Assembly: GCA_018771605.1 (NCBI GenBank)
Contig: CP076324.1
Coordinates: 1,341,700 to 1,405,699, forward strand
Length of the DNA stretch: 64,000 bases
Origin: Aquificota bacterium
GTDB taxonomy: Bacteria > Aquificota > Aquificia > Aquificales > Aquificaceae
Reading direction: 5' to 3'
Shown here: positions 4,473-59,904 of the stretch, piece by piece
Layout of the letters: each line of letters begins with the position of its first letter
Numbering within the stretch: the stretch's first letter is position 1
Notes under the pieces: model-generated
What the model saw: only the letters and a program-made list of their open reading frames with translations
Told to the model about the DNA's origin: nothing
Database searches by the model: none
Made by a program: the position numbers and the translations under genes

Positions 4473-5133
4473 GATTCACAAGATCATAAGGACGGATAGA
4501 AAGACCATAGCCCTTCAGATCACAGAGGAGGGCAAGCTGCTAATTAAGGCACCTTTGAAGGTTAGCGACGAGAAGATCATAGAGGTGGTCCTCAAGCACA
4601 AAAAATGGATAGAAAGGAAAATAAAAGAGGTTCTCTCTCGGGATCCAAAGGCAGGCAAAAAGGAGTTCGTTAATGGCGAAAGCTTTTTGTATCTTGGCAG
4701 GTCCTACAAGCTACACATAGTGGAAAACCAAGAGGAGCCAATAAGGTTTGAAAACGGCTTTTTCCTTTCCAAAAAGTTCCTACACTGTGCCCGAGAAGTC
4801 TTTATAGCTTGGTATAAAGAGGCCGCTTTAGAGAAAATCTCCCAAAGGGTAGAGTTTTACGCAAAAAAAGCAGGTTTTAGGTATGAAAGGATAAAGATAA
4901 CAGATGCACGCACGCGATGGGGCTCCTGCTCGGGCAATAATCTTAACTTCTCTTGGAGGCTCATTATGGCACCTCTTTCGGTTATAGACTATGTGGTAGT
5001 CCATGAGCTCGTCCATTTAGAAGAAAAAAACCACAGCAAGAGCTTTTGGACAAAGGTCAAAGTGTTAATGCCCGATTACCAAAAGCATCACCAGTGGCTA
5101 AAGGAAAACGGCCACCTATTGAGAGTGATTTAA
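4462..5133 (+). CDS. YgjP/DUF45-type zinc metallopeptidase
   Basis: This 223-residue protein carries the zinc-peptidase motif HELVH (near residue 181) followed by LEEKNHSKSFW, the layout of the YgjP/WLM/DUF45 family. An RWGSC sequence precedes it, also typical of the family. The ATG at 4462 is preferred over a TTG at 4432 deep inside hsdR; it overlaps the hsdR end by 11 bases. Family members are commonly found directly after hsdR in type I operons, so an accessory role in the restriction system is likely, but the substrate is unknown. It could also be an independent housekeeping protease that travels with the operon. Confidence 0.85.
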   Translation: MQPEIHKIIRTDRKTIALQITEEGKLLIKAPLKVSDEKIIEVVLKHKKWIERKIKEVLSRDPKAGKKEFVNGESFLYLGRSYKLHIVENQEEPIRFENGFFLSKKFLHCAREVFIAWYKEAALEKISQRVEFYAKKAGFRYERIKITDARTRWGSCSGNNLNFSWRLIMAPLSVIDYVVVHELVHLEEKNHSKSFWTKVKVLMPDYQKHHQWLKENGHLLRVI

Positions 5134-5195
5134 TCACTGAACAAAAAGCCAAAGAGCCCTAACATAAAAAGCAAATCCTTTTGGGAGGTGTTGCC

Positions 5196-5636
5196 ATGAA
5201 GAGAGCTTTAATCTCTGGCTTGCTTTTGGCGGGTATGCTGTCCGCACCCGCATACACACAAGCTAAAGAAAAGAGCCTGTATGAAAGGCTCGGTGGCTAC
5301 GATGCCATATCCGCTGTGGTTAATGAGCTGGCGGTTAGGCTCGTAAAGGATGAGAAGCTGGGAGTGTATTTTAAGGGACTTAGCAACGATAGCAAAAGAA
5401 GGCTAATAGCCCATCTTACTGACTTCGTCTGCTCCGCCACAGGGGGACCCTGTATATACACAGGAAGGGATATGAAAACCAGTCACGAGGGTTTGGGCAT
5501 AACGGATGAAGAATGGAATAGGTTTGTGAAAATCACCAAGGAGGTTTTAAATAAGTTCAAAGTTCCCGCCAAAGAACAGCAAGAGTTTCTGCAATTGGTG
5601 TCTCCCCTTAAGTCGGTAATTGTGGAAAAGAGATAA
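5196..5636 (+). CDS. Exported truncated haemoglobin (group 1-like)
   Basis: The 146-residue protein starts with a Sec-type signal peptide (MKRALISGLLLAGMLSAPAY, likely cut near residue 22) followed by a truncated globin that opens with SLYERLGGYDAI. The haem-ligating proximal histidine is His97 in MKTSHEGLGIT, and the YTGRDMK and GGP segments match group 1 truncated globins. The distal B10 position, usually Tyr, appears to be Ala (NELAVRL where the Mycobacterium protein has EDFYVRV). ATG at 5196 has a GGGAGG sequence 7-8 bases upstream. A terminator follows at once. It probably handles O2 or NO in the periplasm, in line with the nearby Crp/Fnr gene and the norCB genes in this window; that role is inferred. 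Confidence 0.85.
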   Translation: MKRALISGLLLAGMLSAPAYTQAKEKSLYERLGGYDAISAVVNELAVRLVKDEKLGVYFKGLSNDSKRRLIAHLTDFVCSATGGPCIYTGRDMKTSHEGLGITDEEWNRFVKITKEVLNKFKVPAKEQQEFLQLVSPLKSVIVEKR

Positions 5637-5647
5637 AGCCCATTGCT

Positions 5648-5675
5648 GGGTCCCCTCGGGGGACCTATATTTTAT
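5648..5675 (+). terminator. Rho-independent terminator of the globin gene
   Basis: A perfect 7-bp stem GGTCCCC (5649-5655) / GGGGACC (5659-5665) with a TCG loop is followed by a T-rich stretch, 12 bases after the globin stop codon. The T tract is interrupted (tatatttta), so termination may be partial. Only 15 bases separate the stem from the next start codon. Confidence 0.75.
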
Positions 5676-5680
5676 CCTTA

Positions 5681-6310
5681 ATGAAAGAACTCACTTTAGA
5701 AAAGCTTTTCCCTTACGCGGAGAAAAGCTTTAAGGAAGATTTGATTTCCTTCTCTCAACCGGTCAGTCTAAAAAAGGGGACCATGGTAGGCTATCCGGGT
5801 GCGGTGTGTGAGTTGGTGCCTATAGTTTTGGAGGGAAGCGTTAAGGTCTATTTCACCGCAGAGAACGGCAGGGAGATCTTTCTATACAGAATTGGCAGGG
5901 GTGAGACCTGCATACTTACAAACCTCTCGGTTTTAAAGAAAACCCCCTATCCTGCCTACGCGGTCTGTGAGGAGGATGTGCTGGGTTATGTGATTCCCGC
6001 AGAAAAAGCCAACTACCTTTTTGAAAAATACTCCTACTGGAGGAACTTTGTTTTAGATATGGTTGTGAAGAATGTATATGGGCTCTTTCTTGTTCTTAAC
6101 GAGCTAATATCCAAGAGGGTAGACCAAAGACTGGTGGAATACATAAAAAACAACGCCAAAGGCAATGTGATAAAGGCTACCCATGAAGAGATCGCAAGGG
6201 ATATTGGCACTGCCCGGGAGGTGGTCTCAAGGCTTTTGAAGGAACTGGAGAGGGAAGGCTATCTGGAGATCACAAGGGGCGAAATAAGAATACTAAAACC
6301 CATCCCTTAG
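5681..6310 (+). CDS. Crp/Fnr-family transcriptional regulator
   Basis: The 209-residue protein has an N-terminal cyclic-nucleotide-binding-type beta barrel (roughly 20-120), a long dimerisation helix and a C-terminal winged helix-turn-helix (ATHEEIARDIGTAREVVSRL, near 166-185). It lacks the N-terminal cysteine cluster of Fnr, so it is more likely of the Dnr/Nnr or general Crp type. No ribosome-binding site is visible; a TATATT box lies about 9 bases before the ATG, suggesting a leaderless transcript starting just after the globin terminator. It is followed after 15 bases by the frdB-like gene. Regulation of the globin or NO-reductase genes is plausible but not shown. Confidence 0.88.
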   Translation: MKELTLEKLFPYAEKSFKEDLISFSQPVSLKKGTMVGYPGAVCELVPIVLEGSVKVYFTAENGREIFLYRIGRGETCILTNLSVLKKTPYPAYAVCEEDVLGYVIPAEKANYLFEKYSYWRNFVLDMVVKNVYGLFLVLNELISKRVDQRLVEYIKNNAKGNVIKATHEEIARDIGTAREVVSRLLKELEREGYLEITRGEIRILKPIP

Positions 6311-6325
6311 CCTAAATTTATTTTC

Positions 6326-6967
6326 ATGCTGGTGCGACTAAAACTCTACAGGGACTATGATTTTGTCATAAAGGAGTTCGTTGTTCCCGCAGAGCCTGGG
6401 CAAACACTTTTGGATGTCCTCTTTTACATCAAAGAGGAGTATGACCCAACCATCTCCTTTAGGAGTATGTGCAGGGCTGGTATATGCGGAACCTGTGGAG
6501 TAAAGGCAAACCAAAAGCCCATCCTTGCGTGCAAAACCGCCATCAAAGACCTGGGAGAGGAGGTTTTGGTGGAGCCCCTTGATAACATGCAACCCGTTAA
6601 GGATTTGGTGGTGGAGCATAGAACCCTAATAGAACGCATCAAAAAGCTAAAGGTATGGTATGAACCCCTCCAAGAGAACCTTCAAAAGCTTGAGATGAGC
6701 CCCTTTCTTTCAAAGAGTTTTGACTGTATTGCCTGCGGTTTGTGTGATAGCAGTTGTCCCATCTTTGTTAGCAACTCAGACTTTGGAGGTCCAATGGCTT
6801 TTTCCCGAGCTTATAAGCTACTCCAAGACAGAAGGCACTCAAAGGCAGAGGAAAGGCTCCTTCTTATCAAAGATGCCCACATCAACCTTTGCACCCACTG
6901 TAAGAACTGCTCCCTAATTTGCCCTATGGGTCGTGACAGTTCTCTATTGCGAAGCAATTACAACTGA
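6326..6967 (+). CDS. frdB: Succinate dehydrogenase/fumarate reductase iron-sulfur subunit, 3'-truncated
   Basis: This is the electron-transfer subunit of a succinate:quinone oxidoreductase or fumarate reductase. It has the N-terminal [2Fe-2S] cluster site (CRAGICGTCG, then C) and two C-terminal cysteine clusters (CIACGLCDSSCP and CTHCKNCSLICP). The family normally continues 20-30 residues past the last CP motif; here the frame runs from CPMG into RDSSLLRSNYN and stops. Base composition becomes AT-rich at the same point, so the 3' end seems to have been replaced by foreign DNA near 6930. All cluster ligands remain, so the product could still fold. No frdA or membrane-anchor gene is adjacent. 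A leaderless start is likely (TAAATT box just before ATG). Confidence 0.82.
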   Translation: MLVRLKLYRDYDFVIKEFVVPAEPGQTLLDVLFYIKEEYDPTISFRSMCRAGICGTCGVKANQKPILACKTAIKDLGEEVLVEPLDNMQPVKDLVVEHRTLIERIKKLKVWYEPLQENLQKLEMSPFLSKSFDCIACGLCDSSCPIFVSNSDFGGPMAFSRAYKLLQDRRHSKAEERLLLIKDAHINLCTHCKNCSLICPMGRDSSLLRSNYN

Positions 6968-7034
6968 TGACAGTTATTACTTAGGAAACTTTGGAACTTG
7001 CGATGCTATTGATGATGTATTTATGAATTTCTGA
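6933..7034 (+). pseudogene. Coding tail of an unknown gene fused to truncated frdB
   Basis: In the +1 frame relative to frdB, 33 codons from 6933 to the TGA at 7032-7034 are open and look protein-like, ending in GTCDAIDDVFMNF with AT-rich codons unlike those of frdB. There is no plausible start of its own, and the frame opens exactly where the frdB sequence stops resembling its family. The simplest reading is the 3' end of another gene joined here by deletion or integration. The family is not recognised; a replication or mobility gene is possible because iteron-like repeats follow. It could still be a chance open frame. Confidence 0.4.
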
Positions 7035-7048
7035 CCTGAAAGTCATTT

Positions 7049-7345
7049 TTGCACAATGCTTGCACAATGGTTGCTAAGGAATTTGCACAATACAAGGAAA
7101 CCTTAGAAAATCAACAATTAGAGATTTATTTTATTTATCTTATTGTGCATATTGGGCATATGCTAAATGTGTAGAAAAAACGAAAAATTTAGATGGGGGT
7201 ATGCAATTTTCGTGCCAGCTTGGATGTAAAAAAAGAAAAAGACATTTTTTGTGCATACTGCACAATTTGCACAATAAAACTTCTTAAATCTTTGTCTATC
7301 AATGTTTTTATTCATTGTGCAATTCTTTGTGCAAGCATTGTGCAT
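7049..7345. repeat. Cluster of about ten TTGCACAAT-type repeats (iteron-like)
   Basis: Copies on the plus strand start at 7049, 7060, 7083, 7259 (TGCACAAT only) and 7267. Copies in the opposite orientation (ATTGTGCA or TTGTGCA) lie at 7142, 7249, 7314, 7327 and 7337, with a one-mismatch copy (ATTGGGCAT) at 7151. Several spacings are close to whole helical turns (11 and 23 bases). The surrounding DNA is AT-rich and no convincing gene lies between 7035 and 7392. The pattern resembles iterons of a plasmid origin or clustered operators of one DNA-binding protein. I see no classical DnaA boxes (TTATCCACA). Confidence 0.7.
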
Positions 7346-7451
7346 CCTTTTAGCATGCTTAAAATTCTTATCTCTCAATGCTTTGCTAAACATCACGCAA
7401 ACGCTTGATTTTCAAAGCTTTTAAGCATGCTAAACGGATGAGTCGTGCTTG
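7332..7451. repeat. Long imperfect inverted repeat
   Basis: The arms are 7332-7364 and 7419-7451, identical in 27 of 33 positions; the inner part TTTAGCATGCTTAAAA is perfect. The 54-base loop between them holds the stop codon of the LivF reading frame. The structure could be the end of a mobile element, a single-strand origin or a strong hairpin. Confidence 0.65.
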
Positions 7452-8205
7452 TATAAGTGGGTGCCCAGTGGAGTAAACGGATGAGTCGGGCTTGTAAAAG
7501 GACCTTTCTAACCACATCCTTGGAAAGTAGTTCTTCCACATCTCCCTCCGCTACAAGGCTTCCAAGGTCCAGCACATAACCCCTTTTACACAAAAGCTTT
7601 GCGAGGTATATCTCCTGCTCCACAACCAGCAGAGATACCCCCTCCTTTGTGCTTATCTCCCTGAGGGCTTCTCCAAGCCTATCCACCACCTTTGGAGAAA
7701 GGCCCAAAGAAAGCTCATCTATCATAAGAAGCACGGGCTTTGACATGAGGGCTCTGCCTATGGAAAGCATCCTCTGAAAGCCTCCAGAGAGATCGCCAGC
7801 CAGTTTCCTTCTCACCTGTGCCAGCTCTGGAAAGAAGTGATAGATCTTTTCCAACCTCTCTTTAAAATCCCTCCTCTTTGTATATGCGCCAAGCGTAAGG
7901 TTTTCTTCAACGGTCATATCCAGAAAGAGGTTTTTTGTATCGCTTGCCAAAGCTATGCCAAGCTTTAACCTATCATAAGGGCTAACCTCAGATATGTCCC
8001 TGTCCTTAAACCTTATACTTCCCTTCCATGGCTTGAGAAGTCCCGCTATGGTTTTCAAAAGAGTGCTTTTCCCAGAGCCATTAGACCCAAATACCACCAC
8101 CGACTCTCCTTCATAAAGCACCATGTTTATCTCCTTTAGAACCAGCATGTCACCGTAGCCTACGCTTAGGTCCTCAACCTTCAAAAGCAAGGTGTCCTTC
8201 TCCAA
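7393..8205 (-). CDS. livF: Branched-chain amino acid/amide ABC transporter ATPase LivF, with foreign C-terminal tail
   Basis: LivF is one of the two ATPases of a branched-chain amino acid, amide or urea importer. Walker A is GSNGSGKST, the ABC signature LSGGFQRM and Walker B VLLMIDE. Family members end near VRKAYLG; here the frame continues from VVRKVLL for about 35 residues into the direct and inverted repeats (THPFSMLKSFENQAFA at the end). The normal stop codon was probably lost when the repeat region inserted. The core domain is complete, so function is likely kept. The start at 8205 overlaps livG by 32 bases. It is the last gene of the livK-H-M-G-F operon. Confidence 0.9.
   Translation of the reverse strand: MEKDTLLLKVEDLSVGYGDMLVLKEINMVLYEGESVVVFGSNGSGKSTLLKTIAGLLKPWKGSIRFKDRDISEVSPYDRLKLGIALASDTKNLFLDMTVEENLTLGAYTKRRDFKERLEKIYHFFPELAQVRRKLAGDLSGGFQRMLSIGRALMSKPVLLMIDELSLGLSPKVVDRLGEALREISTKEGVSLLVVEQEIYLAKLLCKRGYVLDLGSLVAEGDVEELLSKDVVRKVLLQARLIRLLHWAPTYTSTTHPFSMLKSFENQAFA
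7431..7496. repeat. Tandem 23-bp direct repeat with 20-bp spacer
   Basis: Two copies differing at one base (core AAACGGATGAGTCG) occupy 7431-7453 and 7474-7496, a 43-bp period. The first copy forms part of the right arm of the inverted repeat at 7332-7451. Both copies are read through by the C-terminal extension of LivF. Confidence 0.75.
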
Positions 8206-59286: not shown

Positions 59287-59892
59287 TTATTTTAGCATTT
59301 TAATAAGCTTGAGGAGGTTTCTTATAGCCCTTCCCCTATGGGATATGAGGTTTTTTTCTTGAGGACTTAGCTCTGCCATGCTTTTGGTGTAGCCCTCTGG
59401 CTGGAATATGGGGTCGTAGCCAAAGCCTCCACTTCCTTTTGGCTCATGAAGTATTTGACCGTTGCACCTTCCTTCCGACCAAAGGCCCGCCTCATCCATA
59501 TAAACCATCGTAAAGGTTATAAAGTAAGCCCTTCTGTCCTCAATGCCCTCCATAAGCCTTAACACCTTCCTTATGTTTGCCTTGTCTTTGCTGTCTTCTA
59601 CCTTCTCTACGCCTCCCCATTCAAGGCTGTAGAACCTGCTTGAGAAAACTCCCGGGTAGCCCCCAAGGGCTGGAATTACCAAGCCAGAATCTTCCGCCAA
59701 GGTAGGTATTTTATAAACCTCATAATAGGCCCTTGCCTTTTTATAGGCGTTTTCTAAAAAGCTACCTCCGTCTTCCTCCACTTCTACTTCCCTTTCAGGC
59801 TCCACCAGCTCAATGCCAGAGCCTTCAAAGAGTTCTTTAATCTCCCTTATCTTCCCCTTGTTGGTGGTAGCGAGTAATAATCGGTTTAGCAT
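59287..59892 (-). CDS. rdgB: XTP/dITP diphosphatase (RdgB/HAM1)
   Basis: The 201-residue house-cleaning enzyme removes non-canonical purine triphosphates. Motifs are [56 protein letters not shown] and [14 protein letters not shown] 59892 is chosen since a TATAAT box lies 6 bases upstream and the longer frame runs into the divergent gatB. The two genes have start codons only 15 bases apart. Confidence 0.95.
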
Positions 59893-59894
59893 GC

Positions 59895-59904
59895 TAAAAT
59901 TATA
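59895..59904. promoter_or_regulatory. Overlapping divergent -10 boxes of rdgB and gatB
   Basis: The minus strand has TATAAT (59899-59904), 6 bases before the rdgB ATG; the plus strand has TAAAAT (59895-59900), 7 bases before the gatB ATG. Both would give leaderless transcripts, and any upstream promoter parts would lie inside the opposite coding sequence. Confidence 0.5.

Follow-up and report, generated by a model that had tools for sequence, protein, structure and literature searches.

An array of TTGTGCA words on both strands of an orphan DNA segment in an Aquificota chromosome, a possible replication origin of a lost mobile element

The closest described systems are the pri-rep-ori regions of PICI/SaPI elements and the origins of satellite phage P4, in which short words stand in two sets around an AT-rich region, over about 300 bases, within an integrated element. 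Iteron plasmid origins (RK2, F, P1, R6K) likewise combine multiple initiator-binding repeats with an AT-rich region, and the known plasmid iterons are mostly 17-22 bases long and usually arranged in direct order (PMC4980987). The attP sites of tyrosine integrases (lambda type, ICEMlSym) cover about 280-300 bases and carry several short arm sites, spaced 10-12 bases and divided between two arms; that of ICEMlSym measures 283 bases and has five arm sites (PMC11963761). Clustered short words also make up cosB and pac sites, and some phages have TTGTGCA beside terS or a cos end. Here we describe an array that resembles each of these in part, found in a 64,000-base stretch (the window, by which we mean the whole of the DNA analysed) of a complete 1.72-Mb genome from a hot-spring bacterium of the Aquificota; about 30% of that genome was read directly and the remainder covered by pattern and BLAST search.

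The array consists of ten TTGTGCA/TGCACAA copies, five per strand, across 7050-7344, and lies in a gap of about 570 bases that holds no recognisable gene, the gap's own open frames having no family match. The features of the locus are as follows.

5124-6931, plus strand: globin gene, Crp-family regulator gene and 3'-truncated sdhB-like gene, a block acquired from genus g10
6932-7503, unstranded: orphan segment of 572 bases, about 35% G+C, between two gene-breaking junctions
7049-7345, unstranded: array of ten TTGTGCA/TGCACAA sites, consensus ATTGTGCAW, order +++--++---
7049-7091, plus strand: left set, three direct sites (7050, 7061, 7084)
7050-7067, plus strand: left arm of the perfect 18-base inverted repeat enclosing the array, paired with 7327-7344
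7101-7140, unstranded: AT-rich stretch within the array, 20% G+C, candidate melting region (putative function)
7143-7149, minus strand: single inner site
7249-7275, unstranded: inner right set, the inverted pair TTGTGCA-TAC-TGCACAA and one more direct site
7314-7345, minus strand: right set, three sites (7315, 7327, 7338) oriented towards the left set
7327-7344, minus strand: right arm of the same array-bounding 18-base inverted repeat
7343-7438, unstranded: inverted repeat pairing 7343-7364 with 7417-7438, its arms based on the palindrome AGCATGCT, folding z = -4.3
7431-7500, plus strand: two 27-base direct repeats (7431-7457 and 7474-7500), sharing 93% identity, of which the second directly adjoins the livF junction
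7504-8205, minus strand: livF, its last few codons replaced at the junction

The 7-mer copies begin at 7050+, 7061+, 7084+, 7143-, 7249-, 7259+, 7268+, 7315-, 7327- and 7338-, with start-to-start gaps of 11, 23, 59, 106, 10, 9, 47, 12 and 11 bases, and ATTGTGCA is present in eight of the ten sites; an earlier note on this DNA, which had reported about ten copies in both orientations with 11- and 23-base gaps in a gene-free gap, was accurate in its description. Dinucleotide shuffling of the region gave a mean of 0.35 copies and a maximum of 4 (3000 shuffles), and the background in the same genome, over 485 kb sampled, is 0.036 copies per 300 bases, with no 300-base stretch holding more than 2. 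Over the whole window the count with one mismatch allowed is chance-like (17 found against 17.4 expected), so the signal of the array lies in its clustering. The exact 9-mer TTGCACAAT occurs 12 times in the 1.72-Mb genome, five of them in the array. Searched genome-wide, the array is unique, and the motif was not found to be equally frequent across the chromosome, an outcome that the earlier note had named as one that would refute its reading. At the level of the phylum, no genome among the 136 apart from this one showed adjacent 9-mers within 20 bases of each other, and looser pairs elsewhere are isolated.

Both sides of the orphan segment carry the marks of rearrangement. On the left, the DNA from 5124 to about 6931 is 92-95% identical to four g10 genomes; in all four of these close genomes the match ends at about 6931, and their sdhB-like gene continues to full length. 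The sdhB-like protein is 94-97% identical to those of the four g10 genomes and at most 50% identical within its own genus. Judged by these identities, the globin/Crp/sdhB-like block is a recent horizontal transfer from another genus, g10; at 5124 it meets, in a clean junction, the end of the type I restriction operon that lies to its left, and in none of the relatives examined does it stand next to liv genes. On the right, the LivF C-terminus reads VRR(I/V)Y(L/M)G in relatives versus VRKVLLQARL, running on, here, so its last codons were lost near 7503. The segment thus joins a foreign piece of chromosome on its left to a broken liv operon on its right, and because both of its ends break genes we regard it as foreign DNA too. 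Its motifs have no counterpart in 135 other Aquificota genomes (13 of the same genus and 122 others), and DNA comparison found the segment absent from 40 of these. The proposal of foreign, integrated DNA is therefore supported by these absences and by the g10-like left flank, and conservation of the segment at this place in relatives, the other outcome named as refuting, was not seen. The "foreign coding tail" that had been noted just before the array is indeed foreign, as an sdhB-like gene from another genus cut short, but it is not a new protein, and the 33-codon reading after that gene has no relative in any library tried, including the plasmid and phage collections.

Within the segment, the long inverted repeat that had been pointed out just past the array is real, the folding score above referring to the single strand. 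The 27-base repeats have no convincing copy elsewhere, none beyond chance in 136 genomes of the phylum. Plasmid, phage and genome records gave no match to the segment by DNA comparison, and at curated Rfam thresholds the window contains only tRNAs, the gap giving only sub-threshold matches. A miniature transposon was rejected, as the genome holds no other copy of the segment. Elsewhere in the window, a palindrome at a gene start near 59.9 kb (TTTAGCATGCTAAA, 59885-59898) resembles the inverted-repeat arms near the array (7349-7364).

The array shares the layout of the PICI/P4 type, with sets at 7049-7091 and 7249-7345 and the AT-rich stretch at 7101-7140, at 20% G+C, between them. The likeness is one of layout, and it has limits: the host is an Aquificota bacterium, no pri-rep, int, xis or stl/rpr gene lies at the array, and the array does not sit directly 3' of its own primase or initiator gene, its neighbours being the truncated sdhB-like gene and livF. 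Iteron plasmid origins differ further, since the word here is 7-9 bases long and occurs on both strands, with no rep gene in the gap and no DnaA box.

Arrays of the same word were found in viral contigs. Pattern scans of IMG/VR returned many TTGTGCA-array loci, from which coding repeats (one strand, spacing in threes) were set aside, and 22 non-redundant non-coding arrays with at least 6 sites each were retained, a comparison set chosen by motif. TTGTGCA arrays that are non-coding and mixed in strand recur among viruses. A scrambled word of equal composition, searched in the same pattern form, yielded no locus with at least 6 non-coding sites in 120, and the non-coding share of matches was 9 of 120 for the scrambled word versus 65 of 118 for TTGTGCA. 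Nine genes of at least 200 amino acids lie within 300 bases of the 22 arrays, and five of them encode replicative primases or primase-helicases, each within 115 bases of its array (L304, DUF3987; L531, DnaG-like; L561, DUF3987/PriCT; L568, Toprim/AAA_25; L576, AAA_25). The remaining four encode a small terminase subunit (L503), an integrase (L493) and two proteins with no assigned function. Of the 52 genes lying farther out in these loci, at most 3 have a primase or replicative helicase domain (Pfam), and the hypergeometric probability of the enrichment is about 0.001 by hand calculation, a figure that serves only as a guide, because the distance cut-off was set after seeing the data. The strongest analogue, L304, has 13 sites in 291 bases with an AT-rich centre, 31 bases after the DUF3987 gene and thus, in contrast to the window array, immediately 3' of a primase-helicase-type gene; in L357 a PrimPol-VapE gene lies 1.1 kb from the array.

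Given the PICI-like layout and the L304 analogue, we prefer to read the array as the origin of a phage, satellite or plasmid that has been lost. The segment would be a decayed piece of such an element, joined to other-genus DNA, and the array most likely its replication origin, a tentative reading to which we give somewhat less than an even chance. In the living element, the ATTGTGCAW sites of the left and right sets would be bound by an initiator, probably a primase-helicase or Rep protein whose gene lay next to the array. This protein would melt the AT-rich stretch between the sets and load the replicative helicase and primase or set them to work. No initiator gene or remnant was found adjoining the array, so its function is one that we infer by analogy; the rest of the element would have been lost, and in the present genome the array is probably inert. 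The plasmid or virus origin, or control region, that the earlier note had envisaged is accordingly the option best supported by analogy with the viral primase-side arrays and the PICI-like layout, short of proof. Further points count against an origin: in the letters that flank them (A before TTGTGCA) the sites are no less similar to integrase-linked arrays than to primase-linked ones, and both-strand sites at 9-12-base spacing are atypical of plasmid iterons. Moreover, terminase and integrase genes too have arrays of this word beside them, so that the function cannot be read from the word alone.

The Aquificota have few known mobile elements, and according to one publication no virus of the phylum had been isolated (PMC7689252). 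A clean cis-acting site on recently transferred DNA may be a footprint of the vehicle by which genes pass from one hot-spring genus to another. The 7-base word, unlike its scrambled form, recurs in viral arrays beside primase, terminase and integrase genes, and a search for TTGTGCA arrays would offer a simple means of looking through unannotated DNA for phage origins and further control sites.

In the main rival reading, unlikely though worth serious weight, the array would be a tyrosine integrase's attP-type site, with the repeats as arm-type sites that flank a core and the segment as a remnant of an integrated element. Published sites such as that of ICEMlSym are similar to it in size and density (PMC11963761), and in viral loci L085, L108 and L493, beside tyrosine integrase genes, ATTGTGCA occurs in pairs spaced 10-11 bases, at 200-256 bases from the other sites; the sites in the window have the preceding A, a spacing of 11-12 bases and inverted arms in common with such integrase-linked loci. 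However, both arms are still together here, whereas integration would have separated them, and with ten sites, several of them central, hardly any space is left for a core. Nor did a search bring up a core identical to a tRNA or gene end, matches in the own genome being weak and a short core one that could be missed, and there is no linked integrase gene, the sole tyrosine recombinase of the genome lying at 1,097,890, 251 kb off.

In two viral arrays of lower site count (L085, 8120-8412; L108, 10822-11090), the ATTGTGCA pairs stand on either side of a core resembling a tRNA end, next to tyrosine integrase genes, and are likely attP arm sites.

A many-site operator, bound cooperatively by a transcription regulator at 11-12-base spacing, is improbable. 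The array does contain one palindromic pair, operator-like TTGTGCA palindromes lie upstream of genes in other bacteria (L262, L299, L298), and 740 bases to the left there is a Crp-family gene, but g10 relatives have that Crp gene without such an array. Both flanking genes end towards the array, which leaves no obvious promoter to control, and ten sites over 295 bases would be unusual; the sampled genome has no second such cluster, so that a chromosomal regulator would have a single target. A sigma-54 promoter reading of the 11-base spacing was dropped by eye, the invariant GG being absent.

We consider it quite doubtful that the array is a pac site or cosB, recognised by the small terminase subunit of a phage. 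TTGTGCA arrays adjoin small-terminase genes in L503 and L549 and lie near the large subunit in L535, the word stands beside cos-like DNA in the P2-like prophages L094, L169 and L098 (whose cos region we take to be such), and other-genus DNA joined at the array would fit the end of a packaged molecule. Yet the genes on either side of the array gave no terminase match, terS included, no cos-like sequence or cos end was recognised at it, and the viral examples are fewer than those for primases.

In five P2-like prophages (L094, L169, L098, L178, L134), TTGTGCA repeats 10 bases apart lie next to a cos-like region by the portal gene, where they are perhaps a small-terminase site.

We see only a small chance that both-strand TTGTGCA arrays form an undescribed, recurrent cis-acting signal of otherwise unrelated phages, one that adjoins genes for replication, packaging or integration and may be read by related proteins or by a shared host factor; the window array would then be an Aquificota relic of this class.

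A chromosomal origin element, oriC or a DnaA-titrating site, as the earlier note had also allowed, is very improbable: clustered 9-base words on both strands with an AT-rich stretch would suit it, and skew did not reveal where the chromosome's own origin lies, but dnaA lies at 1,127 kb, 221 kb from the array, the 12.8-kb piece that holds the array contains no TTATNCACA (DnaA) box, the flanks are recent foreign or broken genes, and the missing counterpart in the other genomes of the phylum argues that the array is not oriC. The suggested GC-skew check found no turning point at the array, in raw GC or at fourfold sites (sampled stretches), which by itself is weak evidence because neither skew revealed an origin anywhere in the genome (sampled stretches L039-L078); the absence from the 13 same-genus genomes is the stronger argument.

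The searches also brought up further occurrences of the word. Three adjacent TTGTGCA copies in a relative's genome (G043; L221, contig 150) were ignored, as the 3.6-kb contig looks eukaryotic and is probably contamination. In two further cases TTGTGCA clusters were seen on several contigs of one and the same genome, apparently as dispersed repeats, in Bryobacterales bog_233 (L250, L269, L275, L278) and in Clostridia RGIG3858 (L266, L283, L288, L290, L295).
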